Origin: a virus
Virus record (IMG/VR): IMGVR_UViG_3300044946_000061
Span: 1-45,807 of that record
Strand: one strand, 5' to 3'
Length of the DNA stretch: 45,807 nucleotides
Part shown: piece after piece, positions 3,117 through 45,807 of the stretch
Layout of the letters: each line of letters begins with the position of its first letter
Numbering within the stretch: position 1 is the first letter of the stretch
Position numbers and translations under genes: made by a program
Notes under the pieces: generated by a model
The model's database searches: none
What the model saw: only the letters and a program-made list of their open reading frames with translations
Told to the model about the DNA's origin: nothing

Positions 3117-3839
3117 CTAAAAGTTAAATTTCACCACACCACGGTACATGTTGCCTAGGCCAGGGCACACGCCACTTAAGCCACCGCCAAAGCACGCCCC
3201 TGTGGTCCTGACCTGATACTCGCCATACACGTCAGCCACAACGCCGTTGCTCAGACGACTCCATGCCCCGATTTGAAACGCCGGAGACACTTCCCAAACT
3301 CTATTGGTTGTGAAGGGATTACCGGTATTTGGATCGATGAACTGCGAACTGACATCCTGGAAATGCCCAGCAAGGGCTGCGTAAGGAACTGGCGTGCCGG
3401 TAGTCACACCAACAGGTAGGATGGGAAGGCTCGGCACGGCGATATTGCTGAATCCAAACTGACCTAAGAACGATGCGATTGCGGCATTACCGTATCCGGC
3501 CCTGATCATCCCATCGAGCGGCCCCGACAGGGAGAACCCGTTGGTTGCGCCATTGAGATTGGCGAACCATATCGTTCCTTCCACGAACCACAGTGAGGTG
3601 GGACCAGTGGCACAAGTGTAGCCAAACCCCGCACCAATCTCGCCCTGCACCACAGATGCGCCCGGAACAGGTGAATTACTGACCGGTCCAGCCCCACCAG
3701 CGGCCCCAACCGTCATATAAGTTCCGCATCCAGTTGCGGGAATGTCACGAGGCAAGAATGGCGCCTTCGTAGGTAGATCAGCCGCGCCCGCCGACCAGGA
3801 AGCCAGAGCAAACGCCGTAGCGAGAAGAAACTTTTTCAT
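3117..3839 (-). CDS. Phage-encoded outer-membrane beta-barrel protein
   Basis: This 240-residue protein starts at ATG 3839, which overlaps the stop of the previous gene (ATGA) and has AAGGAAAA upstream. Residues 1-19 are a clear Sec signal (MKKFLLATAFALASWSAGA) cut before ADLPTKAP. That mature end is typical of Omp25/31-type and porin-like proteins in Hyphomicrobiales. The rest alternates glycine and aromatic residues in strand-like runs and ends in VVKFNF with a terminal Phe, the barrel-insertion signal. It lies among the lysis genes, so it may be made late. It may also change the cell surface, for example by blocking further phage adsorption (inference). Confidence 0.78.
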   Translation of the reverse strand: MKKFLLATAFALASWSAGAADLPTKAPFLPRDIPATGCGTYMTVGAAGGAGPVSNSPVPGASVVQGEIGAGFGYTCATGPTSLWFVEGTIWFANLNGATNGFSLSGPLDGMIRAGYGNAAIASFLGQFGFSNIAVPSLPILPVGVTTGTPVPYAALAGHFQDVSSQFIDPNTGNPFTTNRVWEVSPAFQIGAWSRLSNGVVADVYGEYQVRTTGACFGGGLSGVCPGLGNMYRGVVKFNF

Positions 3840-4027
3840 ATCCGTTTTCCTTTCAGCCGATCGAGCCAATCTTCCTTGCGGGGATACAGAACCCGCTCCA
3901 CATCAGCCCTTATGATCGCAACGCACACTGGGCACCCCCACGAATGTCCGGTTCGGCTTTCAAACCGGACATACCGCTTTTGATGCTTCTCGCAGAATAA
4001 AGGGGTTCGCAGTGGCATAAATGGCAC
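3836..4027 (-). CDS. Small zinc-ribbon-like protein, 63 residues
   Basis: The product has CEKHQKRY then, after a gap, CPVC, a pattern able to hold a metal ion, followed by a basic tail (RADVERVLYPRKEDWLDRLKGKRI). Its stop overlaps the start of the outer-membrane protein gene (ATGA), so the two are probably translated together. It sits just after the holin candidate. Function unknown. Confidence 0.65.
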   Translation of the reverse strand: MPFMPLRTPLFCEKHQKRYVRFESRTGHSWGCPVCVAIIRADVERVLYPRKEDWLDRLKGKRI

Positions 4028-4784: not shown

Positions 4785-6049
4785 CAGTCATATTGCCAGT
4801 TGGTGCCATTGCAGGAAACGGGACCATTGACGGTATTGGCACCGCCACCAGTTACGGTACCGTGAAAGGTTGCCGCAGCATTGGCAACCGTATCACTTAC
4901 AAATGCCATCGATCCTTTTAAAGCCGCGCTGCAAGCAGGCAACCCAGAGATTGTGGATGGTATCGGAAAATATTGCACATTGACCGTGTTGCCACCTGGC
5001 GAGAACACCATCTGATGCGACGAGAACACCGACAGATTGGCGATGTTCGGCACCGTGGCGGTATTGGTCTCCACTAGCCCGTAGATATAATTAGGCGTGA
5101 CACTGCCTGGCGTGCCATTGTTAACGTACTTAGTCGCACATCCTGACCCAGCATCGATGTTGTAGAATGTATTGCTGGCCGGGAACCCATTGTGCTGTGA
5201 GTAGTTAAATTGCACAGTCTGACAACCAGCGCCACCTCCAAAAATCATTGTTCGAATGAACGTGTTAGAATCAGCGGTTTGTAGAATGATCGGATTGAAC
5301 GTCGTAGCTGTGCCGGGAACGTAGATGGTCGTATTAGTCCAGAGTTCGTTATGGGTGTTTGAAGTGGTATCCGATGCTTGCCCGGTAAGGAAAATTGCCT
5401 GCGCATTCGACGTGTTCGGCATTACAATGATCGTATTGTCGTAGCGGTTGCGCTCATTGTTCGTGTTGTTGCCGCCGAACTGCGGAACGGTCTGCTCAAG
5501 AACGCCTTGTCCAGTGCAATTATTGAATACGTTGTTCTGGCTTACACCGCCTTGTCCGGAGATTACTGATAAGCCGATACCTGCGCTAGATGCGCAGTCA
5601 ACGTATAGATTGCGAACCCCCCAACCCTGAATAGGTCCATTCACCGCAATCATTGGCTGACCAGCTGACCCACCCCATAAAAGACGGCATCCGGTGGCAG
5701 CAGACTGCGTGCCAAAAAATGGAGTAGCTAGAGGATCACCATCGCAATCCAAAACAATGCCATTGACGGACGAAAGAACACTAGACGTTCCGTTGCCGAT
5801 TATAATGCTGCCATTGATCTTACAAGTACGACCTGCCGGGAATATGACCCGGCCCGGTCCGGCGCCCAATGACGAAATTGCCGCCTGGATCGCTACCAGA
5901 TCGTTGGTAACCCCATCACATACTGCCTGATACGGGAACCCCATGACCTGTACAAGCGTCTGCTCACGATAAGTCTGAGCATAGAGCTGCACAGGCATAA
6001 AAAAAGCCGCCACGAGGGCGGCCAAAACCAGACGAAATAGATATATCAT
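4784..6049 (-). CDS. Secreted pectate-lyase-fold (beta-helix) tail protein
   Basis: The product has 421 residues. Residues 1-24 form a signal peptide (MIYLFRLVLAALVAAFF, then ...VQLYA, cleaved before QTYREQ). The segment with DGVTNDLVAIQAAI and GRVIFPAG is the classic start of pectate_lyase_3 right-handed helices in phage tail spikes. Long N- and S-rich repeats follow. The end (LPACSAALKGSMAFVSD, later CNGTNWQYD) resembles tail-fibre tips. It probably binds or cuts surface polysaccharide. The signal peptide is unexpected for a tail spike, which is normally assembled in the cytoplasm. Confidence 0.8.
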   Translation of the reverse strand: MIYLFRLVLAALVAAFFMPVQLYAQTYREQTLVQVMGFPYQAVCDGVTNDLVAIQAAISSLGAGPGRVIFPAGRTCKINGSIIIGNGTSSVLSSVNGIVLDCDGDPLATPFFGTQSAATGCRLLWGGSAGQPMIAVNGPIQGWGVRNLYVDCASSAGIGLSVISGQGGVSQNNVFNNCTGQGVLEQTVPQFGGNNTNNERNRYDNTIIVMPNTSNAQAIFLTGQASDTTSNTHNELWTNTTIYVPGTATTFNPIILQTADSNTFIRTMIFGGGAGCQTVQFNYSQHNGFPASNTFYNIDAGSGCATKYVNNGTPGSVTPNYIYGLVETNTATVPNIANLSVFSSHQMVFSPGGNTVNVQYFPIPSTISGLPACSAALKGSMAFVSDTVANAAATFHGTVTGGGANTVNGPVSCNGTNWQYD

Positions 6050-6594
6050 GAGATGAACCAGCCTGTGTTTACACTATCATTGAAGGGCATCAATGTCAGT
6101 TCCTGCCTGGCATTGTTCATGGAATAGAAGGCCGCGCCATCGATCGTATCTCCGCTGAACGGAGCTATGGTCAATACATGGGCAGGAAAATTGCCGCCAA
6201 CATCCTTGAACGTTATTGGCGCTCCAGCGCGTGTAGAGGCTTGAGGAAGAGTACAGCTAGGACTGCCGGTAGAGATATTTACGTTCAAAATGCTATCGGT
6301 TGGAGCAACTACGATAGGGCTAGATGTGACACTGCGCTGAGTTCGTACGCCTTGCGTAGCTGTCGTTAACAGGTTGGATAGCGATATCTTAATCCATGAC
6401 TGCGCGACATCATCCCACACTAGAACGTAATCTGTTGGTGTTGCTCCTGGATTGGCCGTATTTATGATGCGGCCGTTGGCGCCGATTGTCCAGACGCCGC
6501 CGACGGTCTTGGCAACCGTGATCGGGCCAGACCCGGTAACCATGGCCGGGAACGGAACCTGCGTATTGATGCGTATGTTGGCGGGGACGACCAT
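6046..6594 (-). CDS. Tail-associated fibre-like protein, 182 residues
   Basis: The first part resembles short tail-fibre modules (GVWTIGANGRIINTA, later DYVLVWDDVAQSWIKISLSNL). The second half carries TLPQASTRAGAPITFKDVGG and APFSGDTIDGA, phrases I recall from proteins next to tail spikes in other phages. The gene overlaps both neighbours by one to four bases, between the beta-helix protein and another tail protein. It is likely a virion tail component; the exact role is unknown. Confidence 0.7.
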   Translation of the reverse strand: MVVPANIRINTQVPFPAMVTGSGPITVAKTVGGVWTIGANGRIINTANPGATPTDYVLVWDDVAQSWIKISLSNLLTTATQGVRTQRSVTSSPIVVAPTDSILNVNISTGSPSCTLPQASTRAGAPITFKDVGGNFPAHVLTIAPFSGDTIDGAAFYSMNNARQELTLMPFNDSVNTGWFIS

Positions 6595-7355
6595 TAGAAT
6601 ATTGCCTGCCAGTTAGCTTGTGATTGCTGAGTGCCGGGGATCATGGTCAGCACGCCGCCAAAGTAGAATGGCTGCGATCCGATCAGAAACTGCCGGGTGT
6701 TTACCCCATCGCTGCCAATCATGGCGGCCTTGAACGTTCCAGGCTGACTATCGGTGCCGAACATGCTGGTACTGCCAATGGTCGCAACAATCGATGCCGA
6801 TATAAGGATTTGCACTACGTTGTTGCTGATCAGCGATAGATAGCCATTGGCGAAGTTGGCCTGCAGCAGCGGCCCAAGATCGTCCGGGACGCCCCAATCC
6901 CACCAGGTCTGATAGCCATCTCCAACATTCCGCGCGCCACCGCGCCTAATTTCGAACTGAAATAACCAGCCAATTTGGACCGTCAGAACGCCAGTGCCTG
7001 ACGCATAGGACACCACATAGCCGTTCAGGCTGTTCAAACCCGTGGCCGTGTCCTTGATTTGAACGGAAACGCCCGGGCTGATGGCAAGACTGGCGCCGAC
7101 TGTTAAAGACAAGGCGGTCAGATTATTGCTAATTGTAATAGGAAACGTGGGAATTGTAATAGACGTAGTGGAGCTGGTCACGATCCCGCCGGCCACGACA
7201 GTCCATGCAGATGCCGTAAACGGCGCGCCTGTATTGGCCAGCGTAATGCCGGACAGGTCCACCGGGTTGAGCGTGTCGTCGTCGAAAGCCGATAGCGTAA
7301 GCAGGTAGTCTTCCCGGTTGCTAAACGGAGGAAGACGCGTATCGATCTGCCACAT
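6594..7355 (-). CDS. Tail protein, 253 residues
   Basis: The sequence opens MWQIDTRLPPFSNREDYLLTLSAFDDDT. It continues with a TASAWTVVAGGIVTSSTTSITIPTF type strand-rich body that resembles a small tail or baseplate-type domain with an Ig-like fold. It ends with a GVNTRQFLIGSQPFYFGGVL segment. The gene is packed between the collar fibre and the 182-residue fibre-like gene, so it is called a tail component from context only. Confidence 0.65.
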   Translation of the reverse strand: MWQIDTRLPPFSNREDYLLTLSAFDDDTLNPVDLSGITLANTGAPFTASAWTVVAGGIVTSSTTSITIPTFPITISNNLTALSLTVGASLAISPGVSVQIKDTATGLNSLNGYVVSYASGTGVLTVQIGWLFQFEIRRGGARNVGDGYQTWWDWGVPDDLGPLLQANFANGYLSLISNNVVQILISASIVATIGSTSMFGTDSQPGTFKAAMIGSDGVNTRQFLIGSQPFYFGGVLTMIPGTQQSQANWQAIF

Positions 7356-7357
7356 GA

Positions 7358-8521
7358 TCAGAGCTTCGCGTACCAGCTGCCCATAATGAAGGGCTGCATC
7401 TGATTGAAGGGCGTTGATGAACCGTTATTGTTGACCGTGGTCGATGTCGTGATGTTGGCAAAGCCCGTCTGGATATTGGCAAATCCCGTATTGATAGAGA
7501 ACGTATCACTTAGGGACATGGTTGATCCGCCAACCGTATCTGCGTTAGGCCCCGTGCCTCGCGTGGCGAAGTGGGTGTTACCACTTCCTGTGCTAAAGCC
7601 GTGCCCATGACCGCTGTCACTATGGCTATGACCGCTATCTGACGATGAAGAGCTTGCGGTATGATTATGCGCAACCAGGTCGCCAACGGTCATCGTGTGC
7701 AGCGCTTCGCCGCCGCTCGCTCCTGGCGTCGTTACTCCATCCCCTCCGCCGCTGGTGATGTTCTGGGAAAAGAGCCGGCCAGCTGCCGTATTACCCATGT
7801 CGTCAACGCCCATGGGGCCACGACCGCGCCAATCAGGCAACTGCAGTTGCTTTCCGGAGTTGAAATCAGCCAGCGCATTGGCGCCTAGGCCGCCTGTGAC
7901 CGGACAATGATTGGATGAATTAGCCGTCGGCTGCGAGCAATTCGTCCAGAAATAGACGTACAAAGCCTGCGTATCAGCATTGGCGCGCTGGGTTGCTCCG
8001 GAAATCGCGTTGCCGATCGTCTGAGCATTCATCTTGACCCAGCCCGTAACGAACTCCTGCGTCATCCTAAATTTAATGTCGCCCGTCGACAGTACCGTTG
8101 TTGGATCGACCGACCCGCCACCGCCGCCCCCCGAGCTGGGACCAATGACCAGAGCGTTCGGAATGTCGAACTGAACAACCCCGTTTGCGTCCGTCAGTCT
8201 GACATGAACGGCACCATTAGCGAGGTAAAATAGTGGGATACGGCCGTTGGCGTCCAGGGTTAAAGGCCATGGATTCGTCAGCGTAAGCCCTGTATCCTGG
8301 AAGGACTGTTGCACTGTGGCAACAGTGCCGACTTGGTAGAAGTACAGCAGGCCGCCCTGTAATGGAGTGCCGCATGCGTTCGTGAACGTCTGGCAATTCG
8401 TAAAGCTGAACTGCTGCTGCAGGGCGATCGGCAACGTGCCTTGCGCTTGGGCGAGGGATGGGAAAAGCAGAGCGAGTAATGGGAGGAAGCGCCGCATGAT
8501 CATGCGAGCATGGGAAGGCAT
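7358..8521 (-). CDS. Collar-domain tail fibre with Sec-like signal peptide
   Basis: Start ATG 8521 is chosen because GAGG stands 6 bases before it; the product has 387 residues. Residues 9-27 (MRRFLPLLALLFPSLAQA) look like a cleaved signal. An N-terminal fibre module follows (LQQQFSFTNCQTF, LTLDANGRIPLFYLANG). A phage tail-collar domain begins at about residue 150, with QLPDWRGRGPMGVDDMG, then GGEALHTMTVGDLVAHNHT, a His/Ser-rich loop, and FNQMQPFIMGSWYAKL. Collar domains form receptor-binding tips. The signal peptide is odd for an intracellularly assembled fibre. Confidence 0.85.
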   Translation of the reverse strand: MPSHARMIMRRFLPLLALLFPSLAQAQGTLPIALQQQFSFTNCQTFTNACGTPLQGGLLYFYQVGTVATVQQSFQDTGLTLTNPWPLTLDANGRIPLFYLANGAVHVRLTDANGVVQFDIPNALVIGPSSGGGGGGSVDPTTVLSTGDIKFRMTQEFVTGWVKMNAQTIGNAISGATQRANADTQALYVYFWTNCSQPTANSSNHCPVTGGLGANALADFNSGKQLQLPDWRGRGPMGVDDMGNTAAGRLFSQNITSGGGDGVTTPGASGGEALHTMTVGDLVAHNHTASSSSSDSGHSHSDSGHGHGFSTGSGNTHFATRGTGPNADTVGGSTMSLSDTFSINTGFANIQTGFANITTSTTVNNNGSSTPFNQMQPFIMGSWYAKL

Positions 8522-8762
8522 AAAAGACCTCATCTACATCACCAACAATGCAAGAGCTGATTTTGGTTTCGTAGGATGGCTGATCGTTTGCGGAGCACTC
8601 GTATTTCTAATCAGGTGGATCAACGAGGCTGCGCAGAGGAAGAGGGGCGATCCTGAGACTTCGGATGAACAGTCACCCGCAAAGGCTCGCGCTTTGGTGG
8701 CTCAGACTGATCAGCATTTGCCGATGCTGGAAGATTATTCAAAAGATTCCGAGTGGCGATAG
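8496..8762 (+). CDS. Antisense membrane protein candidate, 88 residues
   Basis: A rightward frame starts at ATG 8496 with GGGAGG ending 9 bases upstream. It encodes one strong membrane segment (FGFVGWLIVCGALVFLIRW) followed by a charged tail ending KDSEWR. It spans the only gap (8522-8619) between two leftward late genes and overlaps the 3' end of the ejection protein gene. The ribosome-like site is on the complement of codons for RRFLPLL in the fibre signal peptide, so it could be chance. No promoter is seen. Kept as a weak candidate. Confidence 0.25.
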   Translation: MIMRAWEGIKDLIYITNNARADFGFVGWLIVCGALVFLIRWINEAAQRKRGDPETSDEQSPAKARALVAQTDQHLPMLEDYSKDSEWR

Positions 8763-10398
8763 ACAGCGCTGTATTGGTTGACCCAACCCTAGCAGGCCCT
8801 ACCCGAGCGCTATTCCTGGCGGTTTCAAGCCATCTCCGCAGAGAAGAAGCGCTGACAGGGCGTCCTAGAACTCTTGAGATGGCATACCCGCCAGCCAGCG
8901 CGCCGCCGAGATGCGACAAACTTTCTGGATTAACGCCGGCCTCCGCCAAATGCGCCAGAATGCCACCAATACCGACAGCATGGGCCGTGTTGGATGTATT
9001 GCGATATTTATCGGCACCCTTCAGGAAGCTCCCAAGCCTAGAGATGTCATCCAACGCCGCACGGTGCGCAGGATCAGCAACCAGTACTGACTTGGCTGAA
9101 CTGCTCATTTTTCCCCAGCCCGTAGCAAACCGCGACAGGCTGAACCCATCAGGGGTGTTTCCCAGTTCATGAATAGCAATGCCGGATATCTTTTCAAATT
9201 CATCCCGCGGCATTTGACTGCGAAGCTCAGCCAGAAGTTGAGCGTGGCCGCCCTTATCTCTAGAGGCGTTGATCAACTTTCCGGTTAATCCCTCATCACT
9301 AGTATTGCCTATCAACTTGGCAATAGCGTTGTTGCGCTCAATCAACATCGCTGCGGTGTCATTAGCGTTACGGAATGACTCAACAGCCTGATCCGGAGTG
9401 CTCTTGGCATGGTACCGGGCTATGCCTTCCAGGTCAGCCGTCATGGCTGCTTTGATGCGCTTCAAATCGCCGCCCTGAAAACCCGGGTGGGGATTTATGT
9501 CATCCGCTTCAATCTGATTAATAATGTCTGACCGAGCGCGCTGAAGCCCGTTAAACGTTGTGCCCTGATCAGACAGGTTGATAACGTCTTTAAGATCGCT
9601 ATTGGAGTTGTTACCAGCAACCCTACGTTCTCGCAGAATGCCACGCAATGCCGCTTCCGTTCGTGGCACCGATGCCATCGCATCGGGATTAATATGATTA
9701 TTCCGCAAGTCATCATAGGCAAAATCAATCTTGCTCTTATTGTCGGCGATCACGTTCTGCAGCGATTGTTTGGTCTGCGCCCCCACTGTGCCTCTATCTG
9801 GCACTGCGCCCCCAGACAGGTCTTCCGCAATCTCCCCAACGCGTCGGCCTGTGGCATTAATTGTGTTCTGCACACTATGTGTTATCGATGGCCCGACAAA
9901 CGGAACCTGCCGAAATCCCTGAGTCAGCGCCTGCACCCCAGGAGTGGGTGATACGATGCCGGCAGGTAATGGAGAGCCAACATCGGCGGCAGTCTGCGCA
10001 GCCTGTATATTGGGGGTAATCTTCGGGGTTGTGGTGTATCCAGGGTCGGCCATACGGGCAATCTGACGCCCAGTGCCCGCTGCCACCGATCCTGGTCCGA
10101 AAGTTGACCCTATGGTTGCCGATGCTCCAATAGCCTCCGGACTGGCTGCATCTATTTCGCCATGTGCAACCTTCCCCAAAGTTTTCCCGGCATCAACAAT
10201 GCCCCCGGCAACAATGCCAGGATACTGCAAAAGACGCCGCCCAACCCCGCGCCAACCACTGCCAGGAGCGGGCTTTACCGGGTGCAGGAAATCTCCCTCC
10301 CCTCCACCATTGCCATGGTAAGCTTGCGTGAAAGCGTCAATGCTTGGCGCATCCACTTCATAGGACTTGCCATTCATCTCAACTTCGTAGGTCGGCAC
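8620..10398 (-). CDS. DNA ejection/internal virion protein, 592 residues
   Basis: A large, mainly helical protein starting MPTYEVEMNGKSYEVDAPS. That opening is common in phage internal proteins, and it is followed by a Gly/Ala-rich hydrophobic stretch (GVGRRLLQYPGIVAGGIVDAG). The middle is helix-rich, and the part with FSLSRFATGWGKMSSSAKSV and ALDDISRLGSF recalls injected proteins of P22-like phages. The C-terminus is polar and Pro-rich. It is the last of three large proteins after the head-completion genes, the place where P22 keeps gp7, gp20 and gp16. It probably enters the host with the DNA. Confidence 0.7.
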   Translation of the reverse strand: MPTYEVEMNGKSYEVDAPSIDAFTQAYHGNGGGEGDFLHPVKPAPGSGWRGVGRRLLQYPGIVAGGIVDAGKTLGKVAHGEIDAASPEAIGASATIGSTFGPGSVAAGTGRQIARMADPGYTTTPKITPNIQAAQTAADVGSPLPAGIVSPTPGVQALTQGFRQVPFVGPSITHSVQNTINATGRRVGEIAEDLSGGAVPDRGTVGAQTKQSLQNVIADNKSKIDFAYDDLRNNHINPDAMASVPRTEAALRGILRERRVAGNNSNSDLKDVINLSDQGTTFNGLQRARSDIINQIEADDINPHPGFQGGDLKRIKAAMTADLEGIARYHAKSTPDQAVESFRNANDTAAMLIERNNAIAKLIGNTSDEGLTGKLINASRDKGGHAQLLAELRSQMPRDEFEKISGIAIHELGNTPDGFSLSRFATGWGKMSSSAKSVLVADPAHRAALDDISRLGSFLKGADKYRNTSNTAHAVGIGGILAHLAEAGVNPESLSHLGGALAGGYAISRVLGRPVSASSLRRWLETARNSARVGPARVGSTNTALSIATRNLLNNLPASANADQSEPPKREPLRVTVHPKSQDRPSSSAQPR

Positions 10399-30953: not shown

Positions 30954-32447
30954 TCAGCAAAGCTTCACGCTTGACTGCACATCGTTGGCAATGTCATCGC
31001 GCGGCGGGCGATACGCATCCGCAGGCTTCTCTGGCTCTTTGACCGTGCGCATCCAAGGACGGCTTGAGCAGGCATAACGCCAGTCGTCAGCCGCGTGATC
31101 CTCTGATTCCGTGTCCAGGTCTTCAGCCTTCACAGGATCATGCTGCAGGACTGGAATGGTTCTAATCGATGCCAGGCAGGTGTTAAAACAATAGATCATC
31201 GGCACGCCGTCTATGCCGACCATCCGAGCTCGCATCTGGTCCCAGCCATTCATGGGACCTCGCTTGTTCTTGCCGTCCTTCTGAGACACGCGCGTGTTGT
31301 CAGCAGCACGGAACGAGGCGAGCTTGGCATCCACTAGCTTGCGATTGATGCGCTCGCCGATCGACGGACCGCCATCGACCTTGAATGTGGATGGGTCGAT
31401 TACTCCGTATGCCACCCGTGAATCTTTGCTCTCTCTAGCAATGATCCCATCTGCGACTTGCTCAGCTGTGAGTTTGAGTCCAATTGAATTACTAGGGTTT
31501 GTTGACCCGTACCATTCCCGATAGCGGACCAAAGCCCCTCTTGGGAGCGTATGGCGCTTTCCTGATACATGCGATGCTGTTTCATAGTCATCCTGGACAA
31601 CTGCCCACCAGCCGAAGCTGAAGGGGCTAAAGCTGCCCCAGTCCCCGCTGCGAAACCGCACCCAATCATCCGGAATAGCGAACGGCGCGACAACCATCTG
31701 TGGAGACCAGCAGTCAAAGAATGCTCCCTCAATTGCATCCCAATCACCCTCTAGCCATGCCCGAACCAGCGTTGCGGACCCCGAAGCACGCAGGCGCTGT
31801 ACGTAGTCTTGGCCGAGGTAGGCATTGTCGGTGACCCGGCTTGGGATGTAGATACGCTCCAATCCTGTGCTTTGATCGTTAATAATTTTCCATCCACCAG
31901 GCGCAGGATCAATGTAACGGGCTTTGACCCAGTTGTGGCCAGGCCCGCCAGGATTGCCTGTAGCCCTGAATCCAACTGGAACACCTGCTCCTGAGCGCAA
32001 AGTCGCCATGAGCTTGAGAATTGTCTTGTCGCTGGGGAAGGTGCCGATTTCCTCGACGTAAACGCGCGTGTAAGAATGGCCTTGATACGCGTCAGCATCC
32101 TGATCCCGCTCTAGGTAGGCAAACCGCAATCGAGCGCCGTTGGGAAAGCGCCACATTTTAGATTGTTCGTTGAAGACCGCTCCGAGAGCTGCATAGATTT
32201 CGCGAGATCGCTCAATAGTCTCTGCAAGTTGCGTAATTGATCTTCGGACCATAAGTCCAATGGCATACGCTCCATATTCATCGGAATGGACAAGCCATTC
32301 TCCCAGGACTCCATCAGTCTTACCGCCACCTCTAGCCCCTCCAAAAAAGACCTCAAAAGTCGGACATCTGATAAGGTCACTTTGAGGCCCGGGCTGAGCT
32401 TCCCAGACGCAGAGTGGGTCATCAATGAGTGCTGCCGTTGCTGCCAT
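30954..32447 (-). CDS. Terminase large subunit
   Basis: The 497-residue packaging motor has an N-terminal ATPase domain with Walker A GGARGGGKT at residues 36-44 and Walker B RVYVEEI near residues 128-134. The C-terminal nuclease domain shows acidic positions in RSGDWGSFSP, YGVIDPSTF and ESEDHAADDW. It should cut and pump DNA into the head through the portal. It overlaps the small terminase gene by 26 bases. A headful type would agree with the circular map of this genome. Confidence 0.9.
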   Translation of the reverse strand: MAATAALIDDPLCVWEAQPGPQSDLIRCPTFEVFFGGARGGGKTDGVLGEWLVHSDEYGAYAIGLMVRRSITQLAETIERSREIYAALGAVFNEQSKMWRFPNGARLRFAYLERDQDADAYQGHSYTRVYVEEIGTFPSDKTILKLMATLRSGAGVPVGFRATGNPGGPGHNWVKARYIDPAPGGWKIINDQSTGLERIYIPSRVTDNAYLGQDYVQRLRASGSATLVRAWLEGDWDAIEGAFFDCWSPQMVVAPFAIPDDWVRFRSGDWGSFSPFSFGWWAVVQDDYETASHVSGKRHTLPRGALVRYREWYGSTNPSNSIGLKLTAEQVADGIIARESKDSRVAYGVIDPSTFKVDGGPSIGERINRKLVDAKLASFRAADNTRVSQKDGKNKRGPMNGWDQMRARMVGIDGVPMIYCFNTCLASIRTIPVLQHDPVKAEDLDTESEDHAADDWRYACSSRPWMRTVKEPEKPADAYRPPRDDIANDVQSSVKLC

Positions 32448-41047: not shown

Positions 41048-41395
41048 ATGGCAACGAAAAAGCGGAAATCACCCACCACACGTAAAGAACAGGCCGCCAA
41101 AGCGCCGCCGGCAAGCTTTACACTCGGGTTGTGGATGCAAAGGCTGCAAATCAGCGACGAAGATTTGGCAGACAAAATTGGCGTCCGACGCGAAACCGTC
41201 TGGCGCTGGCAGACCGGAGAGCGTCAACCCACAAAGGGAATGATCCCCAAGATCGCTAAGGCACTCGGGATAGAACCGGCCGATCTCTACCGTAATACCA
41301 CACACATCAGCTTAGACGCCGCGGCCGCGCATATTACAGACCCCAAAGATCGAGAGCGTCTGGCGCGATTCCTTAAAGATCACCCCCCCTCATAA
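41048..41395 (+). CDS. XRE-family HTH regulator, 115 residues
   Basis: A lysine-rich head (MATKKRKSPTTRKEQAAKAP) leads to the helix-turn-helix domain (LGLWMQRLQISDEDLADKIG, then VRRETVWRWQTGERQPTKGM). The family's follow-on (IPKIAKALGIEPADLYRN) and a short C-terminal part (ITDPKDRERLARFLKDH) complete it. It is divergent from the repressor gene across O1 and O2, as Cro-like or CII-like genes are. A terminator hairpin follows it. Which of the two HTH proteins is the main repressor cannot be told. Confidence 0.8.
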   Translation: MATKKRKSPTTRKEQAAKAPPASFTLGLWMQRLQISDEDLADKIGVRRETVWRWQTGERQPTKGMIPKIAKALGIEPADLYRNTTHISLDAAAAHITDPKDRERLARFLKDHPPS

Positions 41396-43458: not shown

Positions 43459-43637
43459 GCGATACAAGCAAAACATGTCCCGTCTGCCATGGACTAGGAT
43501 TCGTAAGTTACAACAATAGTGATCTTCGACCTGAGTCGAACGTATTTGGACTTCATCGCGTCACTCACCAGTCTGGTGAAGTGACATGGGAAGGAGAATG
43601 CCGTGTTTGCCATGGAGTCGGAAAAGTCAAGTCATGA
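43455..43637 (+). CDS. DnaJ-type zinc protein, 60 residues
   Basis: Starting at ATG 43455, which overlaps the previous stop (ATGA), the product has CPVCHGLGF near its start and CRVCHGVGK near its end. These are two CxxCxGxG units that together make one zinc site. It is a second, shorter protein of the type seen at 33330. Function unknown. Confidence 0.66.
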   Translation: MSDTSKTCPVCHGLGFVSYNNSDLRPESNVFGLHRVTHQSGEVTWEGECRVCHGVGKVKS

Positions 43638-43990
43638 CCGACGCGCCACGCTACATGAGCTTGGAAACGCTGGCGACCACCTTGGACGTTGGGGAATCCA
43701 CCATTGAGGCATGGGTTGGCCAGGGCAAATTCCCAGCACCGAAGCGGGTGGGGCCTAACGGAATGCGGCGTTGGTCATGGGCTGAGGTGCAGCGCACAAT
43801 AGAAAGACCGCAGGATAGTGCGGCTGATATTCTGGGGAGGATCAGGGATGCGACGCGGGAGGAGGTCTTACGGAGGGATCAACGAAGGGGTGTTCGCGGG
43901 CGTGATCAACGCGTATCTGGACTCGCCCAAGTTTCAAGGACTGGAACCGAACACACAGAGAAGCTACCGGAGAGCCCTGTTGCTAGCTGA
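43634..43990 (+). CDS. AlpA/MerR-type excisionase or regulator
   Basis: From ATG 43634 (overlapping the previous stop) the product has a winged helix-turn-helix: RYMSLETLATTLDVGESTIE, then AWVGQGKFPAPKRVGPNGMR and RWSWAEVQ. This is typical of AlpA/Xis-like proteins that bend att-site DNA and steer excision. The last 47 codons overlap the integrase gene in another frame and are Arg- and Ser-rich, so the folded part is the first 75 residues. Position just before the integrase supports the call. Confidence 0.75.
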   Translation: MTDAPRYMSLETLATTLDVGESTIEAWVGQGKFPAPKRVGPNGMRRWSWAEVQRTIERPQDSAADILGRIRDATREEVLRRDQRRGVRGRDQRVSGLAQVSRTGTEHTEKLPESPVAS

Positions 43991-44753
43991 TCATAGCCTT
44001 GGCTCCATACCGATCGAACAAATGCGGCCGGCATTGGTGCAGGCATTTCTTGACGCATTGGCCGATAGACCGGCAGCTCAACAGAAGACCAAACGCGTTT
44101 TGAAGGCACTGGAAAGCTGGGCAATAGTGCGGGATTTGCTGCCGCGGTCAATCACACAGGGGACTGAGGCCCCCGGATCAGACGGAGGACATGAGCCATG
44201 GTCAGACGAGCAAGTTGCTTTCGCACAGGACAACTGTGCCCCTTTCCTGTCGCGTGCGATATGTATGGCTGCCAATACCGGACAACGAGGCGGCGATCTG
44301 ATCCGTATGCGCTGGACGGACATCGAGACAGTGAGCGGTCATCCGGGGATCAACGTGCGCCAGCAGAAGACGGGGAGGAGGCTGTGGGTGCCGTTCACGC
44401 AGGCGTTGATCGCAAAGATTGAAACATGGGAGCGCCGGCCAGGCTTTATCCTCGTGCGCCCAGATGGGACACCGTATGTGCGCGATATGCTCACCAAGGC
44501 TTGGTACTGGGAAAGGGTCCGCAACCCGGCGCTGGAGCCGCTGCGTCACCTGCACTTGCATGGCCTGCGCGCCACAGCCGTAGTCAGGCTGCGCCGAGCC
44601 GGCGTTAGCATCGCCCAGATTTGTGATGTGGTGGGAATGTCGCAGCAGATGGTCGCGCGCTATTGCCGGCTGTCGGATCAGCGGGAGAACGCATTGGCTG
44701 CTATGGAGCAATTGGAGGGTCGCGTTATCAAGATGGAGTGGGATAGGAAATGA
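43848..44753 (+). CDS. int: Tyrosine recombinase integrase
   Basis: ATG 43848 follows GGAGGATCAGGG and gives 301 residues. The N-terminal SAM-like core-binding domain (residues about 12-100, FAGVINAYLDSPKFQGLEPN) comes first. The catalytic domain shows Arg147 (NTGQRGGD), Lys174 (RQQKTGRR), His238-x-x-Arg241 (LHGLRAT) and the nucleophile Tyr272 (VARYCRLSDQ). The usual second His is Met264 (VVGMSQQ), a variant I recall from integrases of soil alphaproteobacteria. It should insert the circular phage DNA into a host site, so the phage is temperate. No attP core could be picked out. Confidence 0.9.
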   Translation: MRRGRRSYGGINEGVFAGVINAYLDSPKFQGLEPNTQRSYRRALLLADHSLGSIPIEQMRPALVQAFLDALADRPAAQQKTKRVLKALESWAIVRDLLPRSITQGTEAPGSDGGHEPWSDEQVAFAQDNCAPFLSRAICMAANTGQRGGDLIRMRWTDIETVSGHPGINVRQQKTGRRLWVPFTQALIAKIETWERRPGFILVRPDGTPYVRDMLTKAWYWERVRNPALEPLRHLHLHGLRATAVVRLRRAGVSIAQICDVVGMSQQMVARYCRLSDQRENALAAMEQLEGRVIKMEWDRK

Positions 44754-44932
44754 ACAAACGTCACCCTATGCATTGGGCGGTCACTCAAGACGAGCTAGAC
44801 CGCCTCCGCGCCGAGAATGCGGAGCTGCGACACCGGCTTATTCATACCCTAACATGCGAATTAGAAGAGCATGAAATAGCAGAATATCGCAATTATCTAG
44901 ATAAAACCACGAACGAGACGGAGGGGAAATGA
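44750..44932 (+). CDS. Coiled-coil cassette protein, 60 residues
   Basis: ATG 44750 overlaps the integrase stop. The product MNKRHPMHWAVTQDELDRLR, then AENAELRHRLIHTL is a short coiled coil ending KTTNETEGK. The ENAEL heptad and the NETEGK end are shared with 44929-45156 and, in part, 926-1363. Its last bases include GGAGG, the ribosome site of the next gene. Function unknown. Confidence 0.65.
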   Translation: MNKRHPMHWAVTQDELDRLRAENAELRHRLIHTLTCELEEHEIAEYRNYLDKTTNETEGK

Positions 44933-45156
44933 ACGATTTGATCGAACGGCTGCTAAACCCGCGCAGCTTTGACCATGAGGCGTTGCGAAAGGAAGCCGCC
45001 GCCCGCATCCGGGAGCTGGAGGAAGAACTAGACCGACTCCGCGCGGAGAAAGCGGAACTGGTGACGGCGCTGGAAGACTTGCTCAACCTTAAACAGGGTT
45101 GCCATGAGAGGGCCGAAGACCTTCTCGCCAAGGCGAATGAGACGGAGGGGAAATGA
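44929..45156 (+). CDS. Coiled-coil cassette protein, 75 residues
   Basis: ATG 44929 overlaps the previous stop (ATGA). The product starts MNDLIERLLNPRSFDHEALR, a phrase I recall from many small phage proteins, followed by a coiled coil (ARIRELEEELDRLRAEKAEL) and the end LAKANETEGK. It shares coil and end with its upstream neighbour and with the 926-1363 protein. Function unknown. Confidence 0.68.
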   Translation: MNDLIERLLNPRSFDHEALRKEAAARIRELEEELDRLRAEKAELVTALEDLLNLKQGCHERAEDLLAKANETEGK

Positions 45157-45362
45157 GCTGGTTCAAGCATCGCCACTATTGGCGAGAGAAAACCGGATAC
45201 CAGAACGGGATTACCGGTGGGCTTATCGTCGAAGATTGCACTTGCGGCGCTGTGCGTACCATTGAGTTCCAGCTAGGTAGTGCACCGGTTGTGCGTGTGA
45301 CAGAACCGAACAAGCCGGAAACTAAGGTGCGCGCCAAAGACAAAATAATCGGAAATTCTTGA
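45153..45362 (+). CDS. Small protein before the variable slot, 69 residues
   Basis: ATG 45153 overlaps the previous stop (ATGA). The product MSWFKHRHYWREKTGYQNGI, then IVEDCTCGAVRTIEFQLG has CTCG and aromatic residues and ends in a basic RAKDKIIGNS. It is the same gene whose end appears at bases 1-74. It lies just left of the slot that holds either the PP-loop gene or the 105-residue gene. Confidence 0.65.
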   Translation: MSWFKHRHYWREKTGYQNGITGGLIVEDCTCGAVRTIEFQLGSAPVVRVTEPNKPETKVRAKDKIIGNS

Positions 45363-45399
45363 ATGATTTCAACGATGGCTGGTCCTCGGCTGGGATCAG
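45289..45399. repeat. Right-side copy of bases 1-111
   Basis: Identical to the first 111 bases of the window. It covers the end of the 69-residue gene and the first 37 bases of the slot gene. See the entry for bases 1-111. Confidence 0.93.
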
Positions 45400-45680
45400 G
45401 CAAGCAGAAAAACATCAAAGGAGTCAATGACTTGGAGAAAAAGGTAAAAAATGAACCCACCCAGAATAGGCTATTGGGGGGTGCAATTGTCCTTCGGCCG
45501 AATGAAGACGGCAGCTTTGATGAGCTGCTCATGTACGATGGCGAGAAGTGTTTGGTGCATGCCGAGATGATGGACAACAAGTCGCTATGGATCGGGTTCT
45601 ATCCTGGCGGCGATATCCCACGCGTATGCATGTGGATTAGCGCAAAGGGTAAACTGACAGTCCGAGCAGAGGAGGACTGA
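45363..45680 (+). CDS. Alternative slot gene, 105 residues
   Basis: This gene occupies the position of the PP-loop gene in the other version of the junction. It starts MISTMAGPRLGSGKQKNIKG, and its later half is strand-rich (GGAIVLRPNEDGSFDELLMY, then LWIGFYPGGDIPRVCMWI). The first 37 bases are identical to the other version and the next 45 or so remain similar. Function unknown; ATG 45375 is another possible start. Confidence 0.7.
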   Translation: MISTMAGPRLGSGKQKNIKGVNDLEKKVKNEPTQNRLLGGAIVLRPNEDGSFDELLMYDGEKCLVHAEMMDNKSLWIGFYPGGDIPRVCMWISAKGKLTVRAEED

Positions 45681-45807
45681 CCACATGACCCAACCCAGCC
45701 CCCAGGATGACCTGCCGTCAAGACCGTGGACTGTGCGACAGTTTGAGCACGCTTGGGAGATACGCGCAGCCGATGGCGGCTTAATCTGCTTTGTGCAGAG
45801 CGAGACC
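45681..45807. repeat. Right-end copy of 922-1048
   Basis: The last 127 bases are identical to 922-1048 and run off the window edge. They contain the start of the NETE-tail coiled-coil gene. Confidence 0.93.
45685..45807 (+). CDS. 5' end of the coiled-coil NETE-tail gene (second copy of 926-1363)
   Basis: The first 41 codons (MTQPSPQDDLPSRPWTVRQF, then EHAWEIRAADGGLICFV) are the same as those of the gene at 926, cut by the window edge. It is the same locus met again on the circular map. Confidence 0.85.
   Translation, partial: MTQPSPQDDLPSRPWTVRQFEHAWEIRAADGGLICFVQSET

Follow-up and report, generated by a model that had tools for sequence, protein, structure and literature searches.

Here, we provide evidence that the analysed window of 45,807 bases, which is the whole of the virus record IMGVR_UViG_3300044946_000061 in IMG/VR and is classed there as 'linear', is a circular temperate-phage genome that was assembled with k = 127 and traversed for one circuit plus one slot, a reading to which we assign a probability of roughly 0.8. 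The two fillings of this slot, a gene for a PP-loop protein and a gene for a small protein of 105 aa, both occur within this one record and are very probably alternative alleles, carried either within the population sampled or by sister strains that occur together. The same slot seems to be met twice with different genes because it belongs to a set of small genes that are exchanged and recombined among related phages. A contig of class 'linear' can hence be a complete circle that conceals a two-allele locus, which bears on the counting of complete viral genomes and on the spotting of variable loci.

Record ends and the two forms of the slot

By direct comparison, bases 1-111 are identical to 45289-45399, with the match breaking at base 112/45400, and bases 922-1048 are identical to 45681-45807, a stretch of 127 bases that reaches the record end. 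The right match is limited solely by the end of the record and the left match by its start; together, the flanks comprise 238 bases with 0 mismatches between both copies. Chance is ruled out for these matches, as the next-longest exact repeat of the interior (1049-45288) has only 18 bases. The flanks, slot genes, array genes and motifs, excisionase gene, and integrase gene described here lie on the plus strand. The left flank holds the end of a 69-aa gene and the slot boundary TGATTTCAACGATGGCTGGTCCTCGGCTGGGATCAG, a motif that is found in two relatives, and leads into the PP-loop form at 1-111 and into the 105-aa form at 45289-45399. The right flank (922-1048 and 45681-45807) is the start of the next array gene (CCACATGACCCAACCC...). 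The exact equality of both flank pairs had been claimed in a first-pass annotation of this DNA and is borne out. The intervening sequence was there said to differ completely, which is true of the two unrelated genes but not of a short leader that is partly similar, and the differing DNA is 112-921 versus 45400-45680, as the ATG of the 105-aa open reading frame (45363) sits within the shared flank.

Three related records, the only close relatives that the viral collection gave, were found via the integrase and the 105-aa protein. The comparison of arrays thus covers four phages of 44-110 kb, i.e., the window, G001 (44,407 bases), G002 (59,819 bases), and G003 (110,027 bases). G001 and G003 each carry perfect terminal repeats of exactly 127 bases. 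Assemblies of the JGI are made with metaSPAdes and k up to 127. An end repeat of fixed length is therefore common to independent contigs of the same pipeline (the window, G001, and G003), and its identical length of 127 bases points to the k-mer of the assembler. The earlier proposal that the end overlap is an assembly k-mer consequently holds up: 45681-45807, on the right side, has exactly the inferred k. On the left, the overlap is 111 and not 127 bases. The PP-loop form lacks 16 bases of a complete k-mer overlap and is not itself closed on the left side, a shortfall that fits an uncovered or thinly covered tip or a nearby polymorphism at the PP-loop form. The circle is best read as 44,759 bp with the 105-aa gene, or as 45,288 bp with the PP-loop gene. 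That the window walks round the circle once and meets the same locus in a second form, as had been suggested, is corroborated by G001, which is collinear with the window, closes as a circle, and has one slot.

The other two relatives also have ends in the array. The first base of G002 corresponds to window position 956 and its last to 45473, i.e., its assembly broke within the same slot region, as expected if the slot branches in the G002 population, too. G003 also ends within its array. With arrays of 2.6-3.4 kb in genomes of 44-110 kb, at least two of three relatives would end in the array by chance with a probability of about 0.007, according to a rough hand estimate. Exact flanks, 127-base repeats, the single slot of G001, and the ends of G002 all support the view, also put forward in the annotation, that the slot is swapped in a phage population or between sister genomes. 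The junction at which the 69-aa gene meets the slot is common to both window forms and occurs in none of the three relatives, which suggests that both forms are recently related. Exact DNA searches of the viral collection with the right flank gave no match, and those with the left boundary, the MTQPS head, the tail module, and the joint motif gave none beyond the same three relatives.

Other features of the record touch on lifestyle and host. A repressor-like HTH regulator (41048-41395; phrog_2967, E 3e-9) is consistent with a temperate phage. The terminase (30954-32447) is closest (about 51%) to that of Pseudanabaena phage Pam5, and phage matches of the integrase are mostly in phages of Alphaproteobacteria. 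Among bacterial genomes, the integrase had a single match (29%), in a Roseobacter, and genomes sampled from the class of this Roseobacter gave distant integrases only. A secreted protein with an AADLPTKAP N-terminus is encoded at the end of the late operon (3117-3869); we take this N-terminus to resemble outer-membrane proteins of Rhizobiales. There is no tRNA within the 45,807-base window.

A PP-loop gene and a leader-body hybrid

The first filling (126-929, 267 aa) encodes a PP-loop protein that belongs to phrog_424, a PAPS-reductase-like phage family, by both its body profile (E 7e-31, residues 17-234) and its SGGAAS motif, the PP-loop signature. A relative of solved structure is PDB entry 21fy_C, 'PptA' (E 9e-31), and SspD of phosphorothioation systems is a weaker match (E 8e-11). 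This kinship makes a link to sulfur modification of nucleic acid possible as judged from sequence similarity; no Ssp or Dnd partner genes were found among the scanned proteins of the record, and a literature search for PptA and PAPS reductase returned nothing relevant. The protein is like other phage PAPS-reductase-like PP-loop proteins (phrog_424; SspD/DndC-like) in its body match of about 220-240 residues, the SGG signature, and cysteine motifs. It differs by an N-terminal fusion of 21 residues. The body begins near residue 22 (RTLIWFSGG). For most close homologues, the alignment is confined to the part from there on, where they have starts of their own that are M-x-R-T-like, e.g., M-S-R-T, and the first 21 residues are therefore supplied by the leader of the slot.

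The second filling (45363-45680) encodes the 105-aa protein, which has a variable N-terminus and a conserved core from about residue 37 on (LLGGAI...RAEED). It matched no family in Pfam, PHROGs, NCBIfam, or PADLOC, and its predicted model is of low confidence (mean pLDDT 57). The last 69 residues differ from the homologue in G001 (L085) at 4 positions, whereas the N-terminal leaders are unlike. The G001 gene is a hybrid of a PP-loop-type leader (107 bp, 91%) and a 105-aa-type body (231 bp, 94%), and G002 carries a leader of the 105-aa type (98%), which indicates that leader and body recombined separately.

Array of small genes downstream of the integrase

The slot was correctly described as being filled by either a PP-loop enzyme or a small protein, but it is one part of a wider, multi-gene shuffling array. 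This array (44750-45807 and 1-1363) is located downstream of an excisionase-like HTH regulator gene (43586-43990; phrog_66, E 3e-8) and a tyrosine integrase gene (43818-44753; PF00589, E 4e-13; phrog_1, E 3e-38) and consists of small genes, mostly with ATGA overlaps. Many of these genes contain code for a DRLRAEKAEL-like coiled coil, assigned by its heptad-like sequence and not by structure, and a NETEGK end. By sequence, the first gene (44750-44932, 60 aa) has a DRLRAENAEL hinge and a NETEGK end, and the second (44929-45156, 75 aa) has a DRLRAEKAEL hinge and a NETEGK end, with the same head joined to other tails in G002 and G003. The third (45153-45362, 69 aa) is 98.8% identical to G002 up to 45319 and different beyond. 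Behind the slot follows a 145-aa gene starting with MTQPS (926-1363), with a coiled-coil hinge and a NETEA end, the head and tail modules of which are found in other combinations in G001, G002, and G003.

Two DNA motifs recur in the array. A motif search located the hinge motif (CGCCTCCGCGC-type) at 44801-44819, 45034-45052, and 1139-1157. The gene joint GAGACGGAGGGGAAATGA at 44915-44932, with an exact second copy at 45139-45156, is the longest exact repeat of the array and comprises the code for ETEGK and stop, the Shine-Dalgarno sequence GGAGGGG, and the ATGA overlap with the next start. The sequence GAACGAGACGGAGGGGAAATGA is thus NETEGK code, Shine-Dalgarno sequence, and ATGA overlap of the next gene at once.

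In the four phages, heads and tails are combined in several ways, so that one head can be followed by different tails and one tail preceded by different heads. The MNDLIERLLN... head was found with three different tails, and the tail ALEDLLNLKQGCHERA... behind four different heads. Array heads, hinges, and tails are exchanged in combinations between phages of 44, 60, and 110 kb. Many fragments of the array reach 94-99% identity from phage to phage, while the rest of the genes is mostly unrelated or about 85% alike; in G002, array fragments are 96-99% identical despite a mostly unrelated body. The MTQPS module is downstream of the integrase gene in the window, whereas the G003 copy is upstream of it. 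Fragment ends cluster at the coiled-coil hinge (DRLRAEKAEL) and at the stop/Shine-Dalgarno/ATGA joint (NETEGK): 55 of 96 distinct ends lie at most 20 bp from a hinge motif or an array gene start, as compared to 18.9 expected (mean of 2000 shifts in a shift control, 0 of which reached 55). This enrichment supports recombination at the motifs without proving it, because fragment ends are interdependent and alignments can also come to end at a motif that is conserved on other grounds.

A distant relative (L088, integrase identity of 56%) has a post-integrase array at 4925-8821 of the same plan with another joint, GCCCTGGAGCCGAAGCCATGA, which encodes ALEPKP and again holds GGAG and ATGA. The first gene of that array resembles a DNA cytosine methyltransferase by eye and precedes small coiled-coil genes. 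That this plan recurs with another joint may hint at a general design.

Origin of the two forms and comparison with known systems

Two readings of the record ends would place both fillings side by side for other reasons. The record could derive from a true tandem, with both slots in series and duplicated flanks within a single genome, in which case the assembler broke at the repeat. Duplication does occur in such arrays, as paralogous array genes that have diverged are found side by side in genomes of relatives, e.g., two genes of the MTQPS type in G001. Yet a tandem needs exact repeats of 111 and 127 bp, whereas the longest exact direct repeats in the arrays of the relatives are 33, 27, 24, and 16 bases; with nothing above 33 bp in any of them, a tandem copy is improbable. 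It is further disfavoured by the single slot of the circular G001 and by the agreement of the 127-base overlap with the end repeats of independently assembled circular relatives, and we give it little credence. An assembly chimera, with a PP-loop piece from a less related phage that shares just the array stretch attached to the right flank, would be in keeping with the high identity of array fragments between phages with mostly unrelated bodies, as in G002, and with the left end of the PP-loop form, a dead end that falls 16 bases below k. It is at odds with the absence of mismatches in the flanks and with the junction that both forms share with each other and with none of the three relatives, and is likewise unlikely; even a chimera would still mean a slot swap between phages.

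A further proposal, that the nearby integrase exchanges the fillings by programmed site-specific switching, as in phase variation or integron-like cassette exchange, could draw on the position of the tyrosine integrase and the excisionase-like gene directly upstream. We consider it highly improbable. The slot edges have no common direct or inverted repeat, the 45-kb record contains neither a second copy of the PP-loop cassette elsewhere nor a long repeat of the 105-aa cassette, and the hybrid leader/body gene of G001 puts joints inside the slot.

We thus favour alternative alleles of one slot. This slot would be one position in a hypervariable array that forms the distal end of the early xis-int operon and is made up of small genes coupled in translation. 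Recombination between co-infecting phages or with prophages, by the homologous or the short-homology route, is the likely mechanism, and no Red/RecT/Rad52-type recombinase was found among the scanned proteins. A filling may be replaced when two crossovers occur in homologous array DNA, either while phages co-infect a cell or with a prophage that resides there, and such a double crossover fits better than site-specific insertion because the two slot edges lack a common repeat. Flanks of whole genes would serve as joints for gene replacement, and the repeated coiled-coil hinge would allow the head or the tail half of a gene to be exchanged. Each inserted gene would remain translatable owing to the recurrent stop/Shine-Dalgarno/ATGA joint. 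Joints that serve as coiled-coil code, ribosome-binding site, and start/stop overlap would let any piece plug in. The array proteins, with their short head, coiled coil, and tail, are probably early accessory regulators or host-interaction proteins. It is tempting to speculate, albeit with considerable doubt, that the array is an evolved combinatorial shuffling locus, in which hinge and joint repeats are standard recombination joints. By means of these, phages that belong to one host group but are otherwise unrelated would reassort heads, tails, and entire genes, enzymes like the PP-loop protein among them, with reading frame and translation preserved.

An integron-type cassette array, which would need a site recognized by the integrase at each cassette edge, was rejected, as the slot edges share no repeat. 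The closest known organization is the exo-xis region of lambda and Stx phages, which is highly mosaic in Stx phages and includes Ea22, a protein that differs by blocks between phages and is built of a variable N-terminal portion, a coiled coil in the middle, and a C-terminal domain set apart from these (PMC8614690). The array shares with this region mosaic small early genes beside xis-int and has the Ead/Ea22-like layout of variable head, coiled-coil centre, and exchangeable tail, although no Ead/Ea22 family match was found among the scanned slot, MTQPS, and relatives' array proteins. Here, in contrast, several genes have common hinge and gene-joint DNA motifs, and the array follows int. Phage hypervariable regions, or genomic islands, are recovered poorly by short-read virome assemblies (PMC11094077); they are similar in contigs that end at the variable locus and would be so in population variation concentrated there, whereas here both putative alleles sit within a single contig and the locus is a modular array, the joints of which can be identified. 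Mosaicism of lambdoid phages by homeologous recombination, for which lambda Red efficiently recombines diverged DNA (PMC2327257), likewise involves exchange between related temperate phages via short or diverged homology. It differs from the present case, in which no Red-like recombinase was identified among the scanned proteins and the joints are motifs that recur inside small genes as well as at their borders. We regard the finding as a new form of phage mosaicism, not a new category, and offers a sequence-level view of how small accessory genes are exchanged among temperate phages.
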